Source: Alphaproteobacteria bacterium LSUCC0396 (lineage in GTDB: Bacteria; Pseudomonadota; Alphaproteobacteria; Puniceispirillales; Puniceispirillaceae). From it: a stretch of 64,000 nucleotides of DNA. Shown here piece after piece: positions 42,723-49,984 of the stretch (positions are counted from its first letter, which is position 1; each line of letters begins with the position of its first letter). The position numbers were made by a program, and so were the translations under genes. The stretch is from positions 2,163,001 to 2,227,000 of the forward strand of contig CP166131.1 in NCBI GenBank assembly GCA_041228345.1, given 5' to 3'. The notes beneath the pieces are model-generated. The model saw only the letters and a program-made list of their open reading frames with translations, was not told the DNA's origin and did not search any database.

Positions 42723-43442
42723 TTAAGATTGAAGCTTTTTCAGGGACTCACGAAGATTGGCGATGGCTGACTTTTTGATTTGCGACACACGGCCACTGGA
42801 GACTTCAAGAACTTCAGCGATTTCCATCACATTAAGTTCCTCAACGTAATAGAGCTGGATCACAAGCGCTTCATTACCTGATAGCTGTTGCAATGAAATT
42901 TTCAAGAGCTCTTTTAGGTCTTTGTCATTCAGCATGTCTTCTGGTGACTGGTCATCAGAGGTAAACCAAGTTGAGTATTGATCGTAAGCATTATCAAGAG
43001 AGTCGAGTGTATTTGCCTGAAAAGCCCGCTCCCATTCTCTGTATTCATTCAGGCTTATCTGCATTTCAGCACTAATCTCTTCTGCTGTTGGTTGCCTAAA
43101 CAACTTGCCTTGAAGCTTGGTAACGGACTTGTTATACCGTTTTTTCATTTTTATTGTTGTTCGGCAAAGGTTGGATGCCTTTCGAAGATGGTCGATGATA
43201 TCGCCTTTAATTCTTATCGAAGCATATGTGGCAAAGGTTGCTCCCTCTTTTTTTGTATATTGTTGTGCCGCATTGACTAGAGCTGCATATCCAATTTGGA
43301 TAACATCTTCAATTTCAACGGCGTGGCTGGCTCTGCCGTGAATGTGCCAGGCAATTTTTTTTACCAGGTTGCTATGTGATTTGATTACGTCTTCGATATC
43401 TATTTTCTGATCAGCGTAATGGTCACGTTTCGTTGAACTCAT
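42723..43442 (-). CDS. fliA: Flagellar sigma factor FliA (sigma-28)
   Basis: A 239-aa group 3 sigma factor. Region 2 shows HSNLVKKIAWHIHGR, DVIQIGYAALVNAAQQY and FATYASIRIKGDIIDHLRK. Region 3 has RQPTAEEISAEMQISLNEY. Region 4 has LSGNEALVIQLYYVEELNVMEIAEVLEVSSGRVSQI. It directs late flagellar gene expression and is held by FlgM, encoded at 50782. Its start overlaps the flhG stop by 4 bp (ATGA). Confidence 0.94.
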   Translation of the reverse strand: MSSTKRDHYADQKIDIEDVIKSHSNLVKKIAWHIHGRASHAVEIEDVIQIGYAALVNAAQQYTKKEGATFATYASIRIKGDIIDHLRKASNLCRTTIKMKKRYNKSVTKLQGKLFRQPTAEEISAEMQISLNEYREWERAFQANTLDSLDNAYDQYSTWFTSDDQSPEDMLNDKDLKELLKISLQQLSGNEALVIQLYYVEELNVMEIAEVLEVSSGRVSQIKKSAIANLRESLKKLQS

Positions 43443-44229: not shown

Positions 44230-45375
44230 TTATACTGCTAATCCTTTGCTGGAGGACCGAGGTTCGAATTTATAATCAAAGTTTTCCGAGAGATATTGCA
44301 TTAGCACACCCTCCGTTGCAAACAATGGGGCATCGACAATCGAACGTGAAGCAGAAAATAACCCAATTTTTGCATTAACAGTCGCGAAAGATGAGAATTC
44401 AGCGGCGCTCAGATCGCATTCATCAAGTTTTGTTAGGGCCACCATCGGCGCTAGGCTCTTTGTCTCATCTATTGTTTTTTCTATCATATTTGCACTTGTG
44501 CTGGCGGGAACTGTTAGAATGATGCCGATATTCTGTTTGCCAACGCCGGTAATAATTTCAGCCAACTTTTTGCTTGCCTGAATAACTGGCAGGTCAATAT
44601 CGACAACCATCACTTCCGTGCTTTTGATCTGGTTGAAATCGGCAGCAGATGTATCAAGCCCAATTGTAAAGGCCTGGCTGTTAAGAAGTCTGCAAAAATT
44701 TTGCAGTTGACCGTTTGGGCGGTGCCCACCAGTAGCCATCTCTGCGGTTATAATATCTTTTTGCTGATAGGTCTCTTTTAGATAGGCAGTTAATTTACCA
44801 GCCATCGTTGTGCGACCGGTGCCCGATTTTCCCAAGATAAAAATAAATTTCTTCGCTAATAAGGAGACAGCATCATGATGAGTAAGATGGGCGGATAAGT
44901 CAGATAGGAACCTGTTACAGCCGTTATGAAAATTCTCTCCAAGATAAGAAGTTTTAAAATCATCAAGTACCTTTGGTGAGAAGCCAGCCTTTTGAAGCGT
45001 AACGCGGCTATTTGATGACAAATCCTGATTTATACCATCAAGGTTGGTGATAAAAAGTCCGTCGAGCATCCCCTGAAGTTGGACCAATTGCTTTTGCAAA
45101 TTTTGTATTTCCTTGGCGTTTGGCAGAGTTGTTGCTGTCTCGATTTTCTCGGCATTTTTGTTGCGCGTACTGAGCATCTTGTCCGACAGGATTCGAGAGA
45201 ACTCATTTTTATCATGCGGCTGAGGTTGACTGGGTAGTGCGCCTGAAGCGGCCTCCATAACAACCTTTCCGTTGATTTTGGATGTCGACAAAATGACGGC
45301 GTCAGGCCCAAGTTTATTTATAATCTCGTCCATGGCTGCTGCCGTATCCATTGCTTGAACTGTTAATTTTGACAT
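44230..45375 (-). CDS. flhF: FlhF, SRP-type GTPase for flagellar placement, with degenerate G motifs
   Basis: A 381-aa protein in the flhF position. The N-terminal B domain has LTVQAMDTAAAMDEIINKLGPDAVILSTSKINGK's typical pattern. The NG domain has a G1 loop GKSGTGRTT in which the invariant P-loop Lys (GKT) is Arg. The G2 region is MATGGHRPNGQLQ, and G3 reads VMVVDIDLP, not DTAGR. G4 TKLDE is intact. FlhF normally uses GTP-dependent dimerisation to recruit the first flagellar parts to the pole; here GTP hydrolysis is probably weak or lost. It is flanked by flhA and flhG, so the identity is secure by context. Confidence 0.85.
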   Translation of the reverse strand: MSKLTVQAMDTAAAMDEIINKLGPDAVILSTSKINGKVVMEAASGALPSQPQPHDKNEFSRILSDKMLSTRNKNAEKIETATTLPNAKEIQNLQKQLVQLQGMLDGLFITNLDGINQDLSSNSRVTLQKAGFSPKVLDDFKTSYLGENFHNGCNRFLSDLSAHLTHHDAVSLLAKKFIFILGKSGTGRTTMAGKLTAYLKETYQQKDIITAEMATGGHRPNGQLQNFCRLLNSQAFTIGLDTSAADFNQIKSTEVMVVDIDLPVIQASKKLAEIITGVGKQNIGIILTVPASTSANMIEKTIDETKSLAPMVALTKLDECDLSAAEFSSFATVNAKIGLFSASRSIVDAPLFATEGVLMQYLSENFDYKFEPRSSSKGLAV

Positions 45376-45410: not shown

Positions 45411-47534
45411 TTATTGATCTTGAACTTCTAGTTTTGGGTCAGCGTCATTGCTAATCGTTGCAATCACATTGATTTTTCGGTTGTCCGGTAATTCGGTGAA
45501 ACCAAAGACAAATAAATCATCAATATGCTGTCTTAGTAATATCGATAATTGCCGTCTAATTTGAGGGGCAACTATCAGGACTGATTGACGACCGTCCGCC
45601 AAAGATTTTTCACTGGCTTGCGAAATGGATTTTATTAACCTTTGCGCAAGATTTGCATCTAGCAAAAGGTTCCCATCCCCACTCTGACTTGACATTGAGA
45701 TGAGCATGTGCTCAAGGTCTGAGCTGAGTGTGATAACGGGCAAGGCTTGATTTAAAGGGGCAATTTGTTGGATTAACAAGCCTGCTAAATTTGGACGCAT
45801 GGCTTCTGCAACTTCCACAACACTCATACTTTTGCCAGACATATTTGCCAGCGTTTCAAGAATTTTACGGAGGTCGCTTATCGGTACACGCTCTCTCAAA
45901 AGTTCACATAAAATTCCAGTGAGCGTGTGAAGCGGTATTAATTTGGGGACTACAGACTCAACAAGACTTGGTGAAGTCTGGGATAAATTATCTAGTAGTT
46001 TCTGGACATCGTCCTGCCCAATTAATTCGGCAGCAAATTTATACATGATCTGGGATAAATGCGTGGCAAGAACGGACTCAGGCTCAACAACCACATAACC
46101 ATTACCCTCAGCCTCAGACTCCTTATGACGCTCAATCCATACAGCGTCCATGTTAAAGCTTGGGTCTTTAACATCAATTCCCGATATTTTAATCTTGGTG
46201 TTGTCACCAGGAATTGCCATTTTGCGATTTGGGTAAATTACATCCTCGCCAACAATCGTTTGTCCCACGCGGATACGATATTCATTCGCGCTCAACGACA
46301 TATCATCACGCACCCGGACTGCTGGCATCACGAAGCCGAGTGCTTTTGAGACCTGTTTTCTGACACTGGTTATGCGGTTGACCAAAGGCCCACCAGTATC
46401 CTCATCGACCATTTCGATTAGACCATAGCCCAGTTGGACTGATAACGTAGAATTATCAGTGATATCGGTCAGGTCAATTTGATCTGGTTTTTTCTCTGGT
46501 TTCTCATCCTCAATTAAGCTGCTCTCATCTGCTTCTATCTGGCTGATCTTTTCTCTTTTCCGCATGATATAGCCGGCTACTGCAGCGATCGCGGCTGCAA
46601 ATAGGAATAGCGTATTGGGCATACCGGGAACCAAGCCCATCAAAAGCAAAACAGCAGAAACAGGCATCCATGCGCGAGACAGCGAGATTTGGTTGCCTAT
46701 GTGTGAAGCCATATTCTCAGTCGATGATACACGTGTAACAATTATGGCTGTGGCAATCGCCAACATCAGCGAAGGTATTTGGGCAACGAGGCCATCACCG
46801 ACTGACAACAGAATATAGGTTTCCGCCGCCTGACCAATTCCAAGGTCATGCTGTGTTACACCAATTGTCAAACCACCTATAATGTTGATTGCGAGAATCA
46901 AGATGCCAGCAATTGCATCACCTTTCACAAATTTTGATGCGCCATCCATCGCCCCATAAAAATCGGCTTCGCGGGAAATTTCTGCACGTCTCTCCTTTGC
47001 TTCTTCGTTTGTGAGCACTCCAGCATTGAGATCGGCGTCAATCGCCATTTGTTTGCCGGGCATGGCATCAAGCGTAAAGCGCGCCGAAACTTCTGATACG
47101 CGCCCAGCACCTTTGGTGATTACCACTAAATTGATTATAACAAGGATAACAAATACGAAAATACCAACGGCATAATTACCGGCGATTACAAATTGGCCAA
47201 ATGCATTGATCACTTGTCCAGCGGCTTCAGGACCTTCTTGGCCGTTACCAAGAATAATCCTCGTAGAGGCCACATTCAGGCCAAGCCGGAGCACGGTTGC
47301 GATGAGAAGCAAGCTTGGAAAACTTGAAAAATCCAATGGTCGGTATGCGTGGAGCGCCACCATCAGCACAAGAATAGACAAAAGAATATTGGATACAAAA
47401 AACGTATCGAGCAGGAACGTCGGTAATGGCAACACCATCATTGCAACTAAAGCAAGAATACCCGTTGAGAGTATGAGCGCCGAGATCGTCGAACTCATTC
47501 CTGACATTCCAAATTTTTGCAGTGTCATAATCAT
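45411..47534 (-). CDS. flhA: FlhA, flagellar type III export gate component
   Basis: A 707-aa inner-membrane protein that forms the cytoplasmic ring of the export gate. An N-terminal block of about eight TM segments includes RLGLNVASTRIIL and the conserved FHIPEP loop MPGKQMAIDADLNAG ... READFYGAMDGASKFVKGDA. A soluble C-terminal domain follows (from about 350). ATG 47534 is used; the frame also opens at 47573 and an ATG lies at 47528, none with a strong ribosome site. It is first in the flhA-flhF-flhG-fliA operon. Confidence 0.95.
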   Translation of the reverse strand: MIMTLQKFGMSGMSSTISALILSTGILALVAMMVLPLPTFLLDTFFVSNILLSILVLMVALHAYRPLDFSSFPSLLLIATVLRLGLNVASTRIILGNGQEGPEAAGQVINAFGQFVIAGNYAVGIFVFVILVIINLVVITKGAGRVSEVSARFTLDAMPGKQMAIDADLNAGVLTNEEAKERRAEISREADFYGAMDGASKFVKGDAIAGILILAINIIGGLTIGVTQHDLGIGQAAETYILLSVGDGLVAQIPSLMLAIATAIIVTRVSSTENMASHIGNQISLSRAWMPVSAVLLLMGLVPGMPNTLFLFAAAIAAVAGYIMRKREKISQIEADESSLIEDEKPEKKPDQIDLTDITDNSTLSVQLGYGLIEMVDEDTGGPLVNRITSVRKQVSKALGFVMPAVRVRDDMSLSANEYRIRVGQTIVGEDVIYPNRKMAIPGDNTKIKISGIDVKDPSFNMDAVWIERHKESEAEGNGYVVVEPESVLATHLSQIMYKFAAELIGQDDVQKLLDNLSQTSPSLVESVVPKLIPLHTLTGILCELLRERVPISDLRKILETLANMSGKSMSVVEVAEAMRPNLAGLLIQQIAPLNQALPVITLSSDLEHMLISMSSQSGDGNLLLDANLAQRLIKSISQASEKSLADGRQSVLIVAPQIRRQLSILLRQHIDDLFVFGFTELPDNRKINVIATISNDADPKLEVQDQ

Positions 47535-47693
47535 GACAGTCTTTTCACACCGTTGTTGCAATTGGGTAGGCATTGGACGGTGTCTTGCCCATGGCTAACC
47601 CGATTAATCTAAAAAAATCAAAAAAAAACAATTTATTATCTTTCTAAATATGAAATTTCGTCGCTGTTACAGAACCTCAATGTCTGATTTAGA

Positions 47694-47709: not shown

Positions 47710-47842
47710 GTTTTGAGATTGAGTGCTTCAACTCTGGTCAAAATCGGTCTGGTTTGCTGTTTTCTGGCAAATGTAGAAGTAAGCAAGAATTTTGAAACCA
47801 GATAAACGGAGAGGGCGCTTTGATTTCTTTTTAAGGCTTAAT

Positions 47843-47858
47843 TGGCATGGAAGATGCA
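47843..47858 (+). promoter_or_regulatory. Sigma-54 promoter for flgP-flgT-LysM-flgA-flgM-flgN
   Basis: TGGCATG-N4-ATGCA with correct spacing, about 50 bp upstream of flgP. It is divergent from the flhA promoter within a 374-bp gap that holds nothing else I can identify. Confidence 0.76.
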
Positions 47859-47908
47859 TAGATGATGCCAACCAACTGAAGGACTTGCGTGCATCTCAGG
47901 AGCTTTTT

Positions 47909-48412
47909 ATGAGTAAAGTATCTTTGACCATCGTGACTTTGACCACAGGTATGGCATTTTTGACTGGCTGCCAGCACCTAACCAAACAGCCTGTTGTCGA
48001 CAAGATGGCTACTGTCGAAGCATCTCAAACTCAAACGCTGGTCAATATCAAAGATGTGTTGGACTCAAACTCCGAAACCATCCCAACGCTCACCGCTGTT
48101 GGGTATGCAGTGACATCAACGCAACCGGGCCGCAATGAAGCTCAAAAGCGATTGATGGCAATTCGTTCCGCGCGAATGGCGGCGATGCGTGATCTGGCCG
48201 AGCAAATTCATGGTTTGAAGGTTGACTCAAGTACGACGGTGATTGATCTGATTGTTCAAAATGACACGTTCCGGGGTGTGGTTAATGGTACAATCAGGGG
48301 TGCGCGTACGGTCAGAATTAATCCAACTGGCACTGATACGTATGAGGTTGTTCTCGAAATTGACCGGGAAACGATCGCCTATCTTCTAAAGACAGCGCGG
48401 GTAGCGGCTTGA
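47909..48412 (+). CDS. flgP: FlgP-like lipoprotein (flagellar outer-membrane/H-ring component)
   Basis: A 167-aa lipoprotein (LPP20-type) with lipobox LTGC, Cys21. The mature domain contains TAVGYAVTSTQPGRNEAQKRLMAIRSARMAAMRDLAEQI and RGARTV-NPTGTDTYEVVLEID, which match the FlgP pattern. FlgP forms an outer-membrane-associated ring around the basal body in Vibrio and Campylobacter. AGGAG precedes ATG 47909. It is followed 4 bp later by flgT. Confidence 0.84.
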   Translation: MSKVSLTIVTLTTGMAFLTGCQHLTKQPVVDKMATVEASQTQTLVNIKDVLDSNSETIPTLTAVGYAVTSTQPGRNEAQKRLMAIRSARMAAMRDLAEQIHGLKVDSSTTVIDLIVQNDTFRGVVNGTIRGARTVRINPTGTDTYEVVLEIDRETIAYLLKTARVAA

Positions 48413-48416
48413 ACCG

Positions 48417-49547
48417 ATGATTAAAAGAAGCTCGTTTCTGACATTTTTGTGTTTATTTTTTCTTTGTACGCAGATTGCCGAAGCCAGTAAGAAAGATATT
48501 GAAATTGTTACAGCAACGGGACGCGCAGCAATTATTTCTGAGGAGCATATTGACGATACCAGAGCGCGTGCCCTGGAAGATGCTCTTTACAGTGCAGCTC
48601 TGTTAGGCGGAGCTGAGATCGATGGTTTCAGCTCGGTTCAGGCCGGAACGCAGTTGGATGATCATTTTGTGGTGAGGCCATCCAGTAAGATTGTCGATTA
48701 TGACGTTGTTGACGAGCAAATTGATGATCTGCATTACACTGTCACAATTGAAGCAGCAGTTGGTGAACTGAAAAAAGTTGATTGCCAAAACCGTCTGCTT
48801 AACAATGTTACTATGTTTGCCCCGATGTTTCGGGTGGATGAGACAATCCCAGCCTGGCTCTCACAACAGCCAGCCGGCTTAATTAAAGATTTGTATGAAC
48901 AGCTAAAAAGAAAATCTAATTTTGAATTGGTGAATAGAAGTGATTTGCGGCTGGATCCAAAAGAGCTGACCCGTGACCAAAACTTCAGCTATAAGGCATT
49001 AACATCTGGTGCAATCAGGGTTGCCGATGGTGACTTTGCCGTTTCAACAACAATCACTTTGAAAAGGGTTGCGAAAAATACAAGTTTTCAGCAGGAGCAT
49101 TTTGCTGAGGTCACAATTGAAAGTACCATTTTTGTCGATAGTGATTATCGCCTCACTCAAATGATTAATCATCAGCTGCAGGTCCCCATTCGTAAAATCT
49201 TACCTACGCGATTTATGAGTGATTTAGCATCACCTAATCAAGCAAAAATTCGGCAAGAACTATCACGCATTATGTCTGAGCATGCAGCTGAATTATCATC
49301 CGCTATTGTGTGCACACCCCTTTCTGCAACGATGGTTTCCAAAGAAGATGGAATGCACATTCCAATCGGTTCTCGCCAGGGACTTCAGGAAAATCGGCTT
49401 GCTTTTGTGTCAAATAAAGCGGTGCCGTGGACCGTTTTAAGGGTTGTCAAAACCAATACCAATAGTGCAGTTCTCAAGCCATTGAACCGGCAGCGCTCAC
49501 CTGCCCAATTAAGTGGGCAAAGAGTTTTGTTTTTGGAGTTTAACTGA
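48417..49547 (+). CDS. flgT: FlgT-like flagellar H-ring protein
   Basis: A 376-aa periplasmic protein with a signal peptide (to EASA-like AEAS, about 23). The FlgT N-terminal domain pattern is clear (TATGRAAIISEEHIDDTRARALEDALYSAALLGGAEI). The middle domain follows, and the end has a C-terminal beta domain (IGSRQGLQENRLAFV). FlgT builds the H ring that reinforces Na+-driven polar motors in Vibrio. It lies between flgP and a LysM gene, with a one-base overlap to the latter. Confidence 0.85.
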   Translation: MIKRSSFLTFLCLFFLCTQIAEASKKDIEIVTATGRAAIISEEHIDDTRARALEDALYSAALLGGAEIDGFSSVQAGTQLDDHFVVRPSSKIVDYDVVDEQIDDLHYTVTIEAAVGELKKVDCQNRLLNNVTMFAPMFRVDETIPAWLSQQPAGLIKDLYEQLKRKSNFELVNRSDLRLDPKELTRDQNFSYKALTSGAIRVADGDFAVSTTITLKRVAKNTSFQQEHFAEVTIESTIFVDSDYRLTQMINHQLQVPIRKILPTRFMSDLASPNQAKIRQELSRIMSEHAAELSSAIVCTPLSATMVSKEDGMHIPIGSRQGLQENRLAFVSNKAVPWTVLRVVKTNTNSAVLKPLNRQRSPAQLSGQRVLFLEFN

Positions 49548-49984
49548 TGCGTATGTTTGTTATGATGTTTTTAGCGTCAATACTTAGCATTCACGCGGCG
49601 CAAGCCGTCGAGCCAATCGTTGTACTTAGCTATGGTGACATAAGGGGGAACAGTTCAACGCAGGATGAATACGGCGCGCATCCGATGCGGATGGATCCTG
49701 ATGCTTTTCAAACACATCAAGTCGTTGAGGCGGAGACCTTGGGCCATATTATGGCTCAATATTATGCTGGAAGCGGATTGAATATGAAATTTGTCGAGCT
49801 TGCAATATTACAAGTTAACCCCAAGGCCTTCGTCCGCGGCAACCCAAATTTTCTATTCGCTGGAAAAACGCTTCACCTTCCATCTGTCAACCAGATTAAA
49901 GCTTTGGTTACAAAAGAAAAATCTACAACACGAAGCTCATCGCAAAATGGGAATCAAAATGAGATTTTCTTCTTTGGTGGTTAG
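49547..49984 (+). CDS. Secreted LysM-like protein in the flgPT cluster
   Basis: A 145-aa protein with a signal peptide (to AAQA, about 20). A LysM/FimV-like segment follows (HQVVEAETLGHIMAQYYAGSGLN, FVELAILQVNPKAFVRGNPNFLFAGKTLHLPS) and then a Ser/Gln-rich tail. LysM domains bind peptidoglycan, so it could fix the H ring to the wall; that is inferred. Its ATG overlaps the flgT stop and its end overlaps flgA by 26 bp. Confidence 0.78.
   Translation: MRMFVMMFLASILSIHAAQAVEPIVVLSYGDIRGNSSTQDEYGAHPMRMDPDAFQTHQVVEAETLGHIMAQYYAGSGLNMKFVELAILQVNPKAFVRGNPNFLFAGKTLHLPSVNQIKALVTKEKSTTRSSSQNGNQNEIFFFGG

Follow-up and report, generated by a model that had tools for sequence, protein, structure and literature searches.

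FlhF of the Puniceispirillales has lost its switch motifs order-wide and is probably a pseudo-GTPase scaffold

Results

The flhF locus and its product

The window, meaning the whole stretch of 64,000 nucleotides analysed here (contig CP166131.1 of Alphaproteobacteria bacterium LSUCC0396, order Puniceispirillales), carries a flagellar cluster in which flhF is placed between flhA and flhG–fliA, with flhG named from a sub-cut-off match to a MinD-type ATPase model together with its position (Table 1). The cluster also encodes an LPP20 lipoprotein and a protein with a FlgT N-terminal domain. Parts of the FlgP/FlgT type are known mainly from Vibrio, and here LPP20- and FlgT-type proteins occur in an alphaproteobacterium. 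Hook proteins are usually much smaller than the FlgE-type protein of this cluster.

Table 1. Features of the flhF locus and of the surrounding flagellar cluster, in window positions
Feature	Coordinates	Strand	Evidence or remark
fliA, flagellar sigma factor	42723–43442	−	TIGR02479 209.2 bits, over cut-off
flhG/fleN, MinD-type ATPase, canonical P-loop, without DQAxxLR helix	43439–44227	−	TIGR01969 122 bits, under cut-off 201.75; name from position
flhF, N-terminal domain, linker and degenerate NG domain without G2/G3 motifs, 381 aa	44230–45375	−	ORF, ATG start, profile matches
G4 TKLDE, residues 315–319	44419–44433	−	alignment
Asp259, first residue of G3, kept; TAGR lost	44599–44601	−	Asp in 46/46 order rows, 143/143 other class rows
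G1/P-loop GKSGTGRT, residues 182–189	44809–44832	−	sequence and alignment
Arg188, codon CGC, in place of P-loop Lys	44812–44814	−	sequence
N-terminal FliG-interacting domain (FID/B domain), residues 1–46	45238–45375	−	match to 9en1
flhA, upstream neighbour of flhF	45411–47573	−	TIGR01398 816.4 bits, over cut-off
LPP20 lipoprotein	47792–48412	+	
FlgT N-terminal domain protein	48417–49547	+	
145-aa protein, signal-peptide-like N-terminus	49547–49984	+	FimV/HubP N-terminal core TIGR03505, 37.7 bits, cut-off 43.45
FlgE-type hook protein, 1269 aa	54640–58449	+	

By sequence comparison, the product of the gene is FlhF by descent and position: it lies between flhA and flhG–fliA, begins with an N-terminal FliG-interacting domain (FID), and continues, by profile, into an NG domain of the SRP-GTPase fold. 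With a profile built from eleven relatives, the best solved structures were FlhF NG domains (8r9r, E 7.6e-16; 2px0, E 2.5e-13), and 9en1, the N-terminal domain of FlhF, was matched as well (E 5e-6); the window FlhF as a single sequence matches 9en1 weakly (E 0.03). When the NG domains of the order were aligned with those of the class using hhalign, the match reached 99.2% probability (E 3.5e-19) over 244 columns. The predicted structure of the window FlhF, made from an alignment of two rows, is poor overall (pLDDT 36.5), with the FID appearing as beta-alpha-beta-beta at a pLDDT of about 60.

Against the NCBIfam FlhF model TIGR03499 the protein scores 58 bits, below the curated cut-off of 174. 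Since just 3 of the 385 genomes in our class sample reach that cut-off (among matches up to E 1e-30), it is a poor test for FlhF in this class. The Pfam SRP54 cut-off of 22.7 bits is likewise not reached (18.7 bits). The genome is a single contig of 2.59 Mb with three TIGR03499 matches, namely the window FlhF, FtsY and Ffh, the last two each above their own family cut-off, and with one match to the FID among the matches listed. The first-pass annotation had named a second, canonical flhF elsewhere in the genome as grounds for refuting its reading; none was found genome-wide, either with TIGR03499 or, among the matches listed, with the FID.

Loss of G2 and G3 throughout the order

The P-loop of the window FlhF reads GKSGTGRTT (residues 182–190), so that residue 188 is Arg, encoded by CGC, where SRP-type GTPases have Lys. 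The G2 stretch contains neither DTxR nor RIGAxEQL, and G3 reads VVDIDLP, in which the Asp is retained and the rest is lost. Of the SRP-type GTPase motifs, the P-loop Lys, G2 DTxR and G3 DTAGR are thus missing and G4 TKxD is present. These results are in accordance with the first-pass annotation, which had reported Arg for the invariant Lys, lost G2 and G3 motifs and a preserved G4 TKLDE, with the refinement that Asp259 alone survives of G3. The same Arg is found in a 97% identical protein from a Candidatus Puniceispirillum assembly (L034) and in all ten tree rows of the window's genus, and a sequencing error at this codon is ruled out by its being common to the genus.

An alignment of related FlhF proteins had been proposed as a check, and we placed 46 FlhF rows of the order, taken from genomes of the same genus, family and order, in a common alignment with 143 other alphaproteobacterial rows. 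The latter come from surveys of 385 genomes of the class, of which 29 had TIGR03499 matches at E 1e-30 and at least 182 had FID matches. Dropped from the counts were one locus with a split frame (L010), four truncated loci (L032, L103, L138, L220), duplicates (L003, L028, L034), identical copies among the class loci, and the pieces L240–L243 from an assembly that is 7% contaminated; L024 was kept despite its partial N-terminus, two rows discussed below (L200 and L225) are counted within the 143, and the fusion proteins described further on are not among the 46. Among the dropped pieces, L242 and L243 are more divergent FlhF sequences with the loops GPSLSGKTL and GDEGAGKTL.

Within the P-loop, Gly182 and Gly187 are found in every row of both sets (46/46 and 143/143), Gly185 in 46/46 order and 139/143 class rows, and Thr189 in all 46 order rows, including every one of the 19 that carry Arg188. 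The G4 Asp is equally well kept (46/46 versus 142/143), and in the order each of the G4 residues K, L, D and E is invariant, preceded by T in 43 rows and by S in 3. Its Lys is present in only 22/143 class rows, where Arg takes that place in 108; judged from this alignment, the guanine motif appears, if anything, better preserved in the order than in the rest of the class. The switch motifs are a different matter: the G2 Asp occurs in 0/46 order versus 142/143 class rows, the G2 Arg/Lys column in 12/46 (in a loosely aligned stretch) versus 138/143, the G3 Thr/Ser in 0/46 versus 127/143 and the G3 Gly in 1/46 versus 116/143. The loss of G2 and G3 is thereby found in all 46 rows of the order, and switch-less FlhF is an order-wide state, no curiosity of one genome. 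Residues invariant specifically in the order include Asn232 and Glu319.

Since the rows of the order that keep the P-loop Lys also lack the switches, the loss of G2 and G3 is most simply read as older than the change from Lys to Arg, with the switches lost in the ancestor of the order rows. Because two proteins from outside the order (L200, genome G230, and L225, genome G089) show like losses, having neither the G2 Arg nor the G3 Thr and retaining Lys, the switch-less state may even predate the order, and these two proteins and the order possibly represent one switch-less lineage.

We consider it probable, though far from certain, that these proteins are FlhF whose SRP-type GTPase domain became a pseudo-GTPase scaffold, with a guanine nucleotide perhaps permanently bound. 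That the nucleotide would have been retained as a structural element is suggested by the P-loop backbone, Asp259 and G4, which are invariant. The first-pass annotation had proposed a nucleotide-free scaffold, which corresponds to a class I pseudo-GTPase with an empty pocket, the fold alone being used. Arg in 19 of the 46 rows and the complete absence of the G2 Asp speak for it, and a related family has dispensed with the G domain altogether (see below). However, an empty pocket should drift, and the P-loop glycines, Thr189, Asp259 and the G4 KLDE are fixed in all 46 rows, with the G4 Lys being commoner in the order than in the class. For that reason we keep the scaffold part of the earlier proposal, in that the domain lacks G2 and G3 and is yet maintained, and favour its nucleotide-free part less, the empty pocket being a less likely reading.

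Lys to Arg at residue 188

On our alignment the Lys-to-Arg change is a partial event, unlike the loss of G2 and G3 common to all 46 rows. The FlhF tree, which has a number of open forks and some long branches placed together, shows at least two changes at residue 188 inside the order, most simply explained by Arg having arisen twice, in a 17-row clade to which the window's genus belongs and in two of the three rows of family f3. In the class set Arg188 was seen once in 143 rows against 142 with Lys (27/46 Lys in the order), where the class rows were drawn among the FID matches listed and Arg could be commoner in the weakest FID hits or in second copies. Every occurrence of Arg188, in the order or the class, is accompanied by damaged G2 and G3; in L212, the sole Arg row from elsewhere in the class, the G2 Asp is retained and the G2 Arg and G3 Thr are gone. 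Five different Arg codons are used across the 19 Arg rows and L212, so that the codon drifts while the residue stays constant.

Replacement of the P-loop Lys by Arg usually weakens nucleotide binding, which counts against a nucleotide being retained. The first-pass annotation had suggested, as an alternative, that the first lysine of the loop compensates. This is not borne out, as that lysine is present in just 2 of the 19 Arg rows. A partner residue covarying with Arg188 was also sought and rejected: most of the 22 columns that best separate Arg from Lys rows follow the clade and fail within family f3, the exceptions being Ser/Thr123 and Asp/Asn241, which differ between the Arg and Lys rows of f3 too.

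Selection and co-occurrence with flagellar genes

Pairwise dN/dS (omega) was computed in ten pairs, some with a member in common. Omega lies between 0 and 0.09 for the FID, and for the N and G domains together between 0.04 and 0.14 in six of the seven Arg-lineage pairs, at 0.26 in the seventh, nearly identical pair (L004/L005), and between 0.07 and 0.21 in the three Lys-lineage pairs; the linker ranges from 0.12 to 0.68 and FlhG from 0.02 to 0.20. Purifying selection acts on the degenerate NG domain.

Among 72 genomes of the order that are at least 80% complete, FlhA (E up to 1e-60) occurs together with an FlhF or a FID-bearing protein (E up to 1e-18) in 51, neither occurs in 20, and FlhF occurs alone in one (G018), in which FlhF lies close to a contig end and FlhA has no match. 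The 20 genomes with neither protein are scattered over several genera and reflect either repeated loss of flagella or incomplete assemblies. The window's genome has one FliG match, over cut-off. In genome G010, flhF (L010) is split into two overlapping frames of 253 and 126 aa, each counted from its first Met, through a frameshift or an assembly error.

A decaying gene on its way to being lost would explain the genomes without FlhA and FlhF, the split frame in G010, the window FlhF scores under the family cut-offs, and the omega values of 0.26 (N and G domains) and 0.68 (linker) for the window and its closest relative, a pair with few changes. The remaining pairs have low omega, the gene co-occurs with FlhA, and Arg188 is held through synonymous change, all of which make decay very improbable. 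From these comparisons, flhF of the order looks functional and tied to flagella.

FlhG and polar landmarks

The activator helix of FlhG bears a DQAxxLR motif (described in the available text of PMC12826062). Picking FlhG-type ORFs by their GKGG P-loop, we saw no DQAxxLR in any such ORF examined from the class or the order, with the proviso that this pattern may miss variants. Loss of the activator helix as the specific cause of the switch-less state is therefore rejected, the motif being equally absent from the FlhG-type ORFs of the class. Because DQAxxLR is absent from the ORFs examined and G4 carries Arg in 108/143 class rows, the textbook FlhF–FlhG switch may not apply to the Alphaproteobacteria at large. 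The FlhG-type N-termini of L200 and L225 resemble those of the order, and in genome G189 a 615-aa ORF (L214) reads as a natural FlhF–FlhG fusion, with FlhF at the front.

A working but unusual GTPase, in which Arg188 substitutes for Lys and other residues stand in for G2 and G3, would account for the strong constraint on the NG domain and for order-specific invariants such as Asn232 and Glu319. We nevertheless regard it as improbable, since the G2 Asp and the G3 Thr/Ser are absent in all 46 rows and the FlhG-type ORFs examined lack the activator helix motif.

PopZ as a common landmark was rejected: PF10691, which we take to be its family, was found in only 4 of the 72 order genomes, in three over cut-off, and the window's genome is not one of the four. 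The landmark search in the window's genome returned only a short FimV-like N-terminal piece, the 145-aa protein of Table 1, which sits inside the flagellar cluster, lacks a cytoplasmic region and has no Pfam match. The main texts of SAR116 papers, searched for flagella and motility, yielded only a count by gene category and, for strain HIMB100, the statement 'motility unknown'.

A family in which a predicted membrane anchor takes the place of the NG domain

In family f2, the flhF locus encodes a protein of 341–361 aa (seven sequences) that consists of the FID, a charged middle, one hydrophobic helix and a tail, with the NG domain absent. The charged middle reads like a coiled coil, and hydropathy computation finds the helix, with basic residues before it, in 7/7. 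The order flhA–fusion–flhG–fliA is readable at six of the seven loci, the seventh contig ending after the fusion gene, and was confirmed with NCBIfam in the single-contig genome G037. When ten f2 genomes were searched with the FlhF model, seven had one match reaching the first 50 positions, which is the fusion protein, while the other three had neither such a match nor FlhA; further matches in these genomes were read as ffh, ftsY and chance P-loops.

Against Pfam DUF3426 (cut-off 27.7 bits) the tails of three proteins score 20.7 to 26.1 bits, and in the genome search five of eight f2 proteins pass the cut-off. By hhalign, the helix and tail match the zinc-ribbon/DUF3426 proteins of the order at 99.25% probability (E 5e-20, 154 columns). 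These separate proteins carry a zinc ribbon and DUF3426 (by Pfam in two, by eye in the others), the combination known from ZitP (PMC5182063); at the N-terminus of the fusion no zinc ribbon was matched in three proteins, and the FID stands there instead. Omega is 0 to 0.05 for the FID (four computable pairs) and 0.11 to 0.47 for the helix and tail, and the FID is the most constrained part of the f2 protein.

In the FlhA tree, six f2 rows form one clade (100/100) that groups at 99/99 with some f1 lineages; the remaining f1 rows, and then f3 and f4, lie outside, with the node of f1 and f2 at 88/85. Since f2 is nested among lineages of the order, the exchange of the NG domain for the anchor most simply occurred once, from an ancestor already without switches. 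With the G domain gone, the nucleotide cannot be indispensable in f2.

Discussion

The window FlhF resembles canonical FlhF of Shewanella, Pseudomonas and Bacillus in its FID, its NG domain (by profile), its G4 TKLDE, its position beside flhA and flhG and its single copy in the genome. Unlike canonical FlhF, it lacks the G2 DTxR and the G3 TAGR and has Arg for the P-loop Lys, and its partner FlhG lacks the DQAxxLR that the accessible part of PMC12826062 describes. With other alphaproteobacterial FlhF, the order shares the FID and NG domain, the G3 Asp and, at the loci examined, FlhG-type ORFs without DQAxxLR; those proteins have the G2 Asp and the P-loop Lys (142/143 each) and mostly a G4 Arg, whereas the order has KLDE and no switches.

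Under the pseudo-GTPase reading, FlhF of the order would recruit FliG through its N-terminal domain, with the G domain acting as a static docking module in which a guanine nucleotide is probably held as a structural cofactor and not cycled. Once switching no longer depended on the P-loop Lys, that Lys could be replaced. In f2, direct anchoring of the tether in the membrane would take over from docking through the G domain.

This division of labour can be compared with studied systems. According to the available text of PMC11236974, the first 60 residues of Shewanella FlhF are necessary and sufficient for FliG binding, whereas HubP, the polar landmark, is bound by the NG domain with or without added GDP or GTP. 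The accessible part of PMC12713375 describes P. aeruginosa FlhF constructs without B, N or G that did not restore motility, although a B+N construct yields flagella, with about 65% of cells having a non-polar one; the G domain carries polar localisation, the flagellum being misplaced without it, and FliG binding is reported to be under the control of GTP. On the basis of the two studies, docking through the G domain could outlast the loss of hydrolysis. The failed constructs, the misplaced flagellum and the reported role of GTP in P. aeruginosa count against the pseudo-GTPase reading.

Septins offer a further parallel, in that hydrolysis has been lost repeatedly, the nucleotide is structural in some, and pocket decay falls into three classes, as set out in the available text of PMC10731463. 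The invariant pocket of the order would suggest, by analogy, a bound guanine nucleotide as in class II or III septin pseudo-GTPases. Septins are eukaryotic filament proteins outside the SRP GTPases, several with a measured nucleotide state, whereas FlhF is read here from sequence. The f2 fusion has its nearest likeness in ZitP of Caulobacter, for which the accessible text of PMC5182063 gives a cytoplasmic N-terminal domain, one transmembrane helix and DUF3426, a layout that the fusion appears to share, and a zitP motility defect that is suppressed by mutation of fliG; in place of the zinc finger of ZitP, the fusion has the FID of FlhF and a long charged stretch. A full-text search of open-access papers, with subscription papers mostly outside its reach, found none that joins FlhF with SAR116, DUF3426 or pseudoGTPase.

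More tentatively, and with confidence a little short of even, we propose that flagellar site selection in the order works without any GTPase switch, and that FlhF was reduced stepwise: the switch motifs would have been lost in the common ancestor, Lys would have changed to Arg along two branches, and one family would have traded its GTPase domain for a membrane anchor that is akin to ZitP-like proteins found in the order, leaving the 45-residue FliG tether as the sole indispensable part. The apparent replacement of the GTPase domain by a membrane anchor in one branch suggests that the switch is less important than the tethering of a motor protein.

FlhF is described as a molecular switch, and the need for GTP hydrolysis varies between species. 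In this order strong selection keeps the FliG-binding tether in place at its locus while the switch motifs, or the GTPase domain itself, vanish. FlhF of the order therefore separates tethering from switching and provides natural proteins for testing that separation. If the reading is true, it would document the evolution of a bacterial pseudo-GTPase of the SRP family in which the intermediate and end states are both extant.
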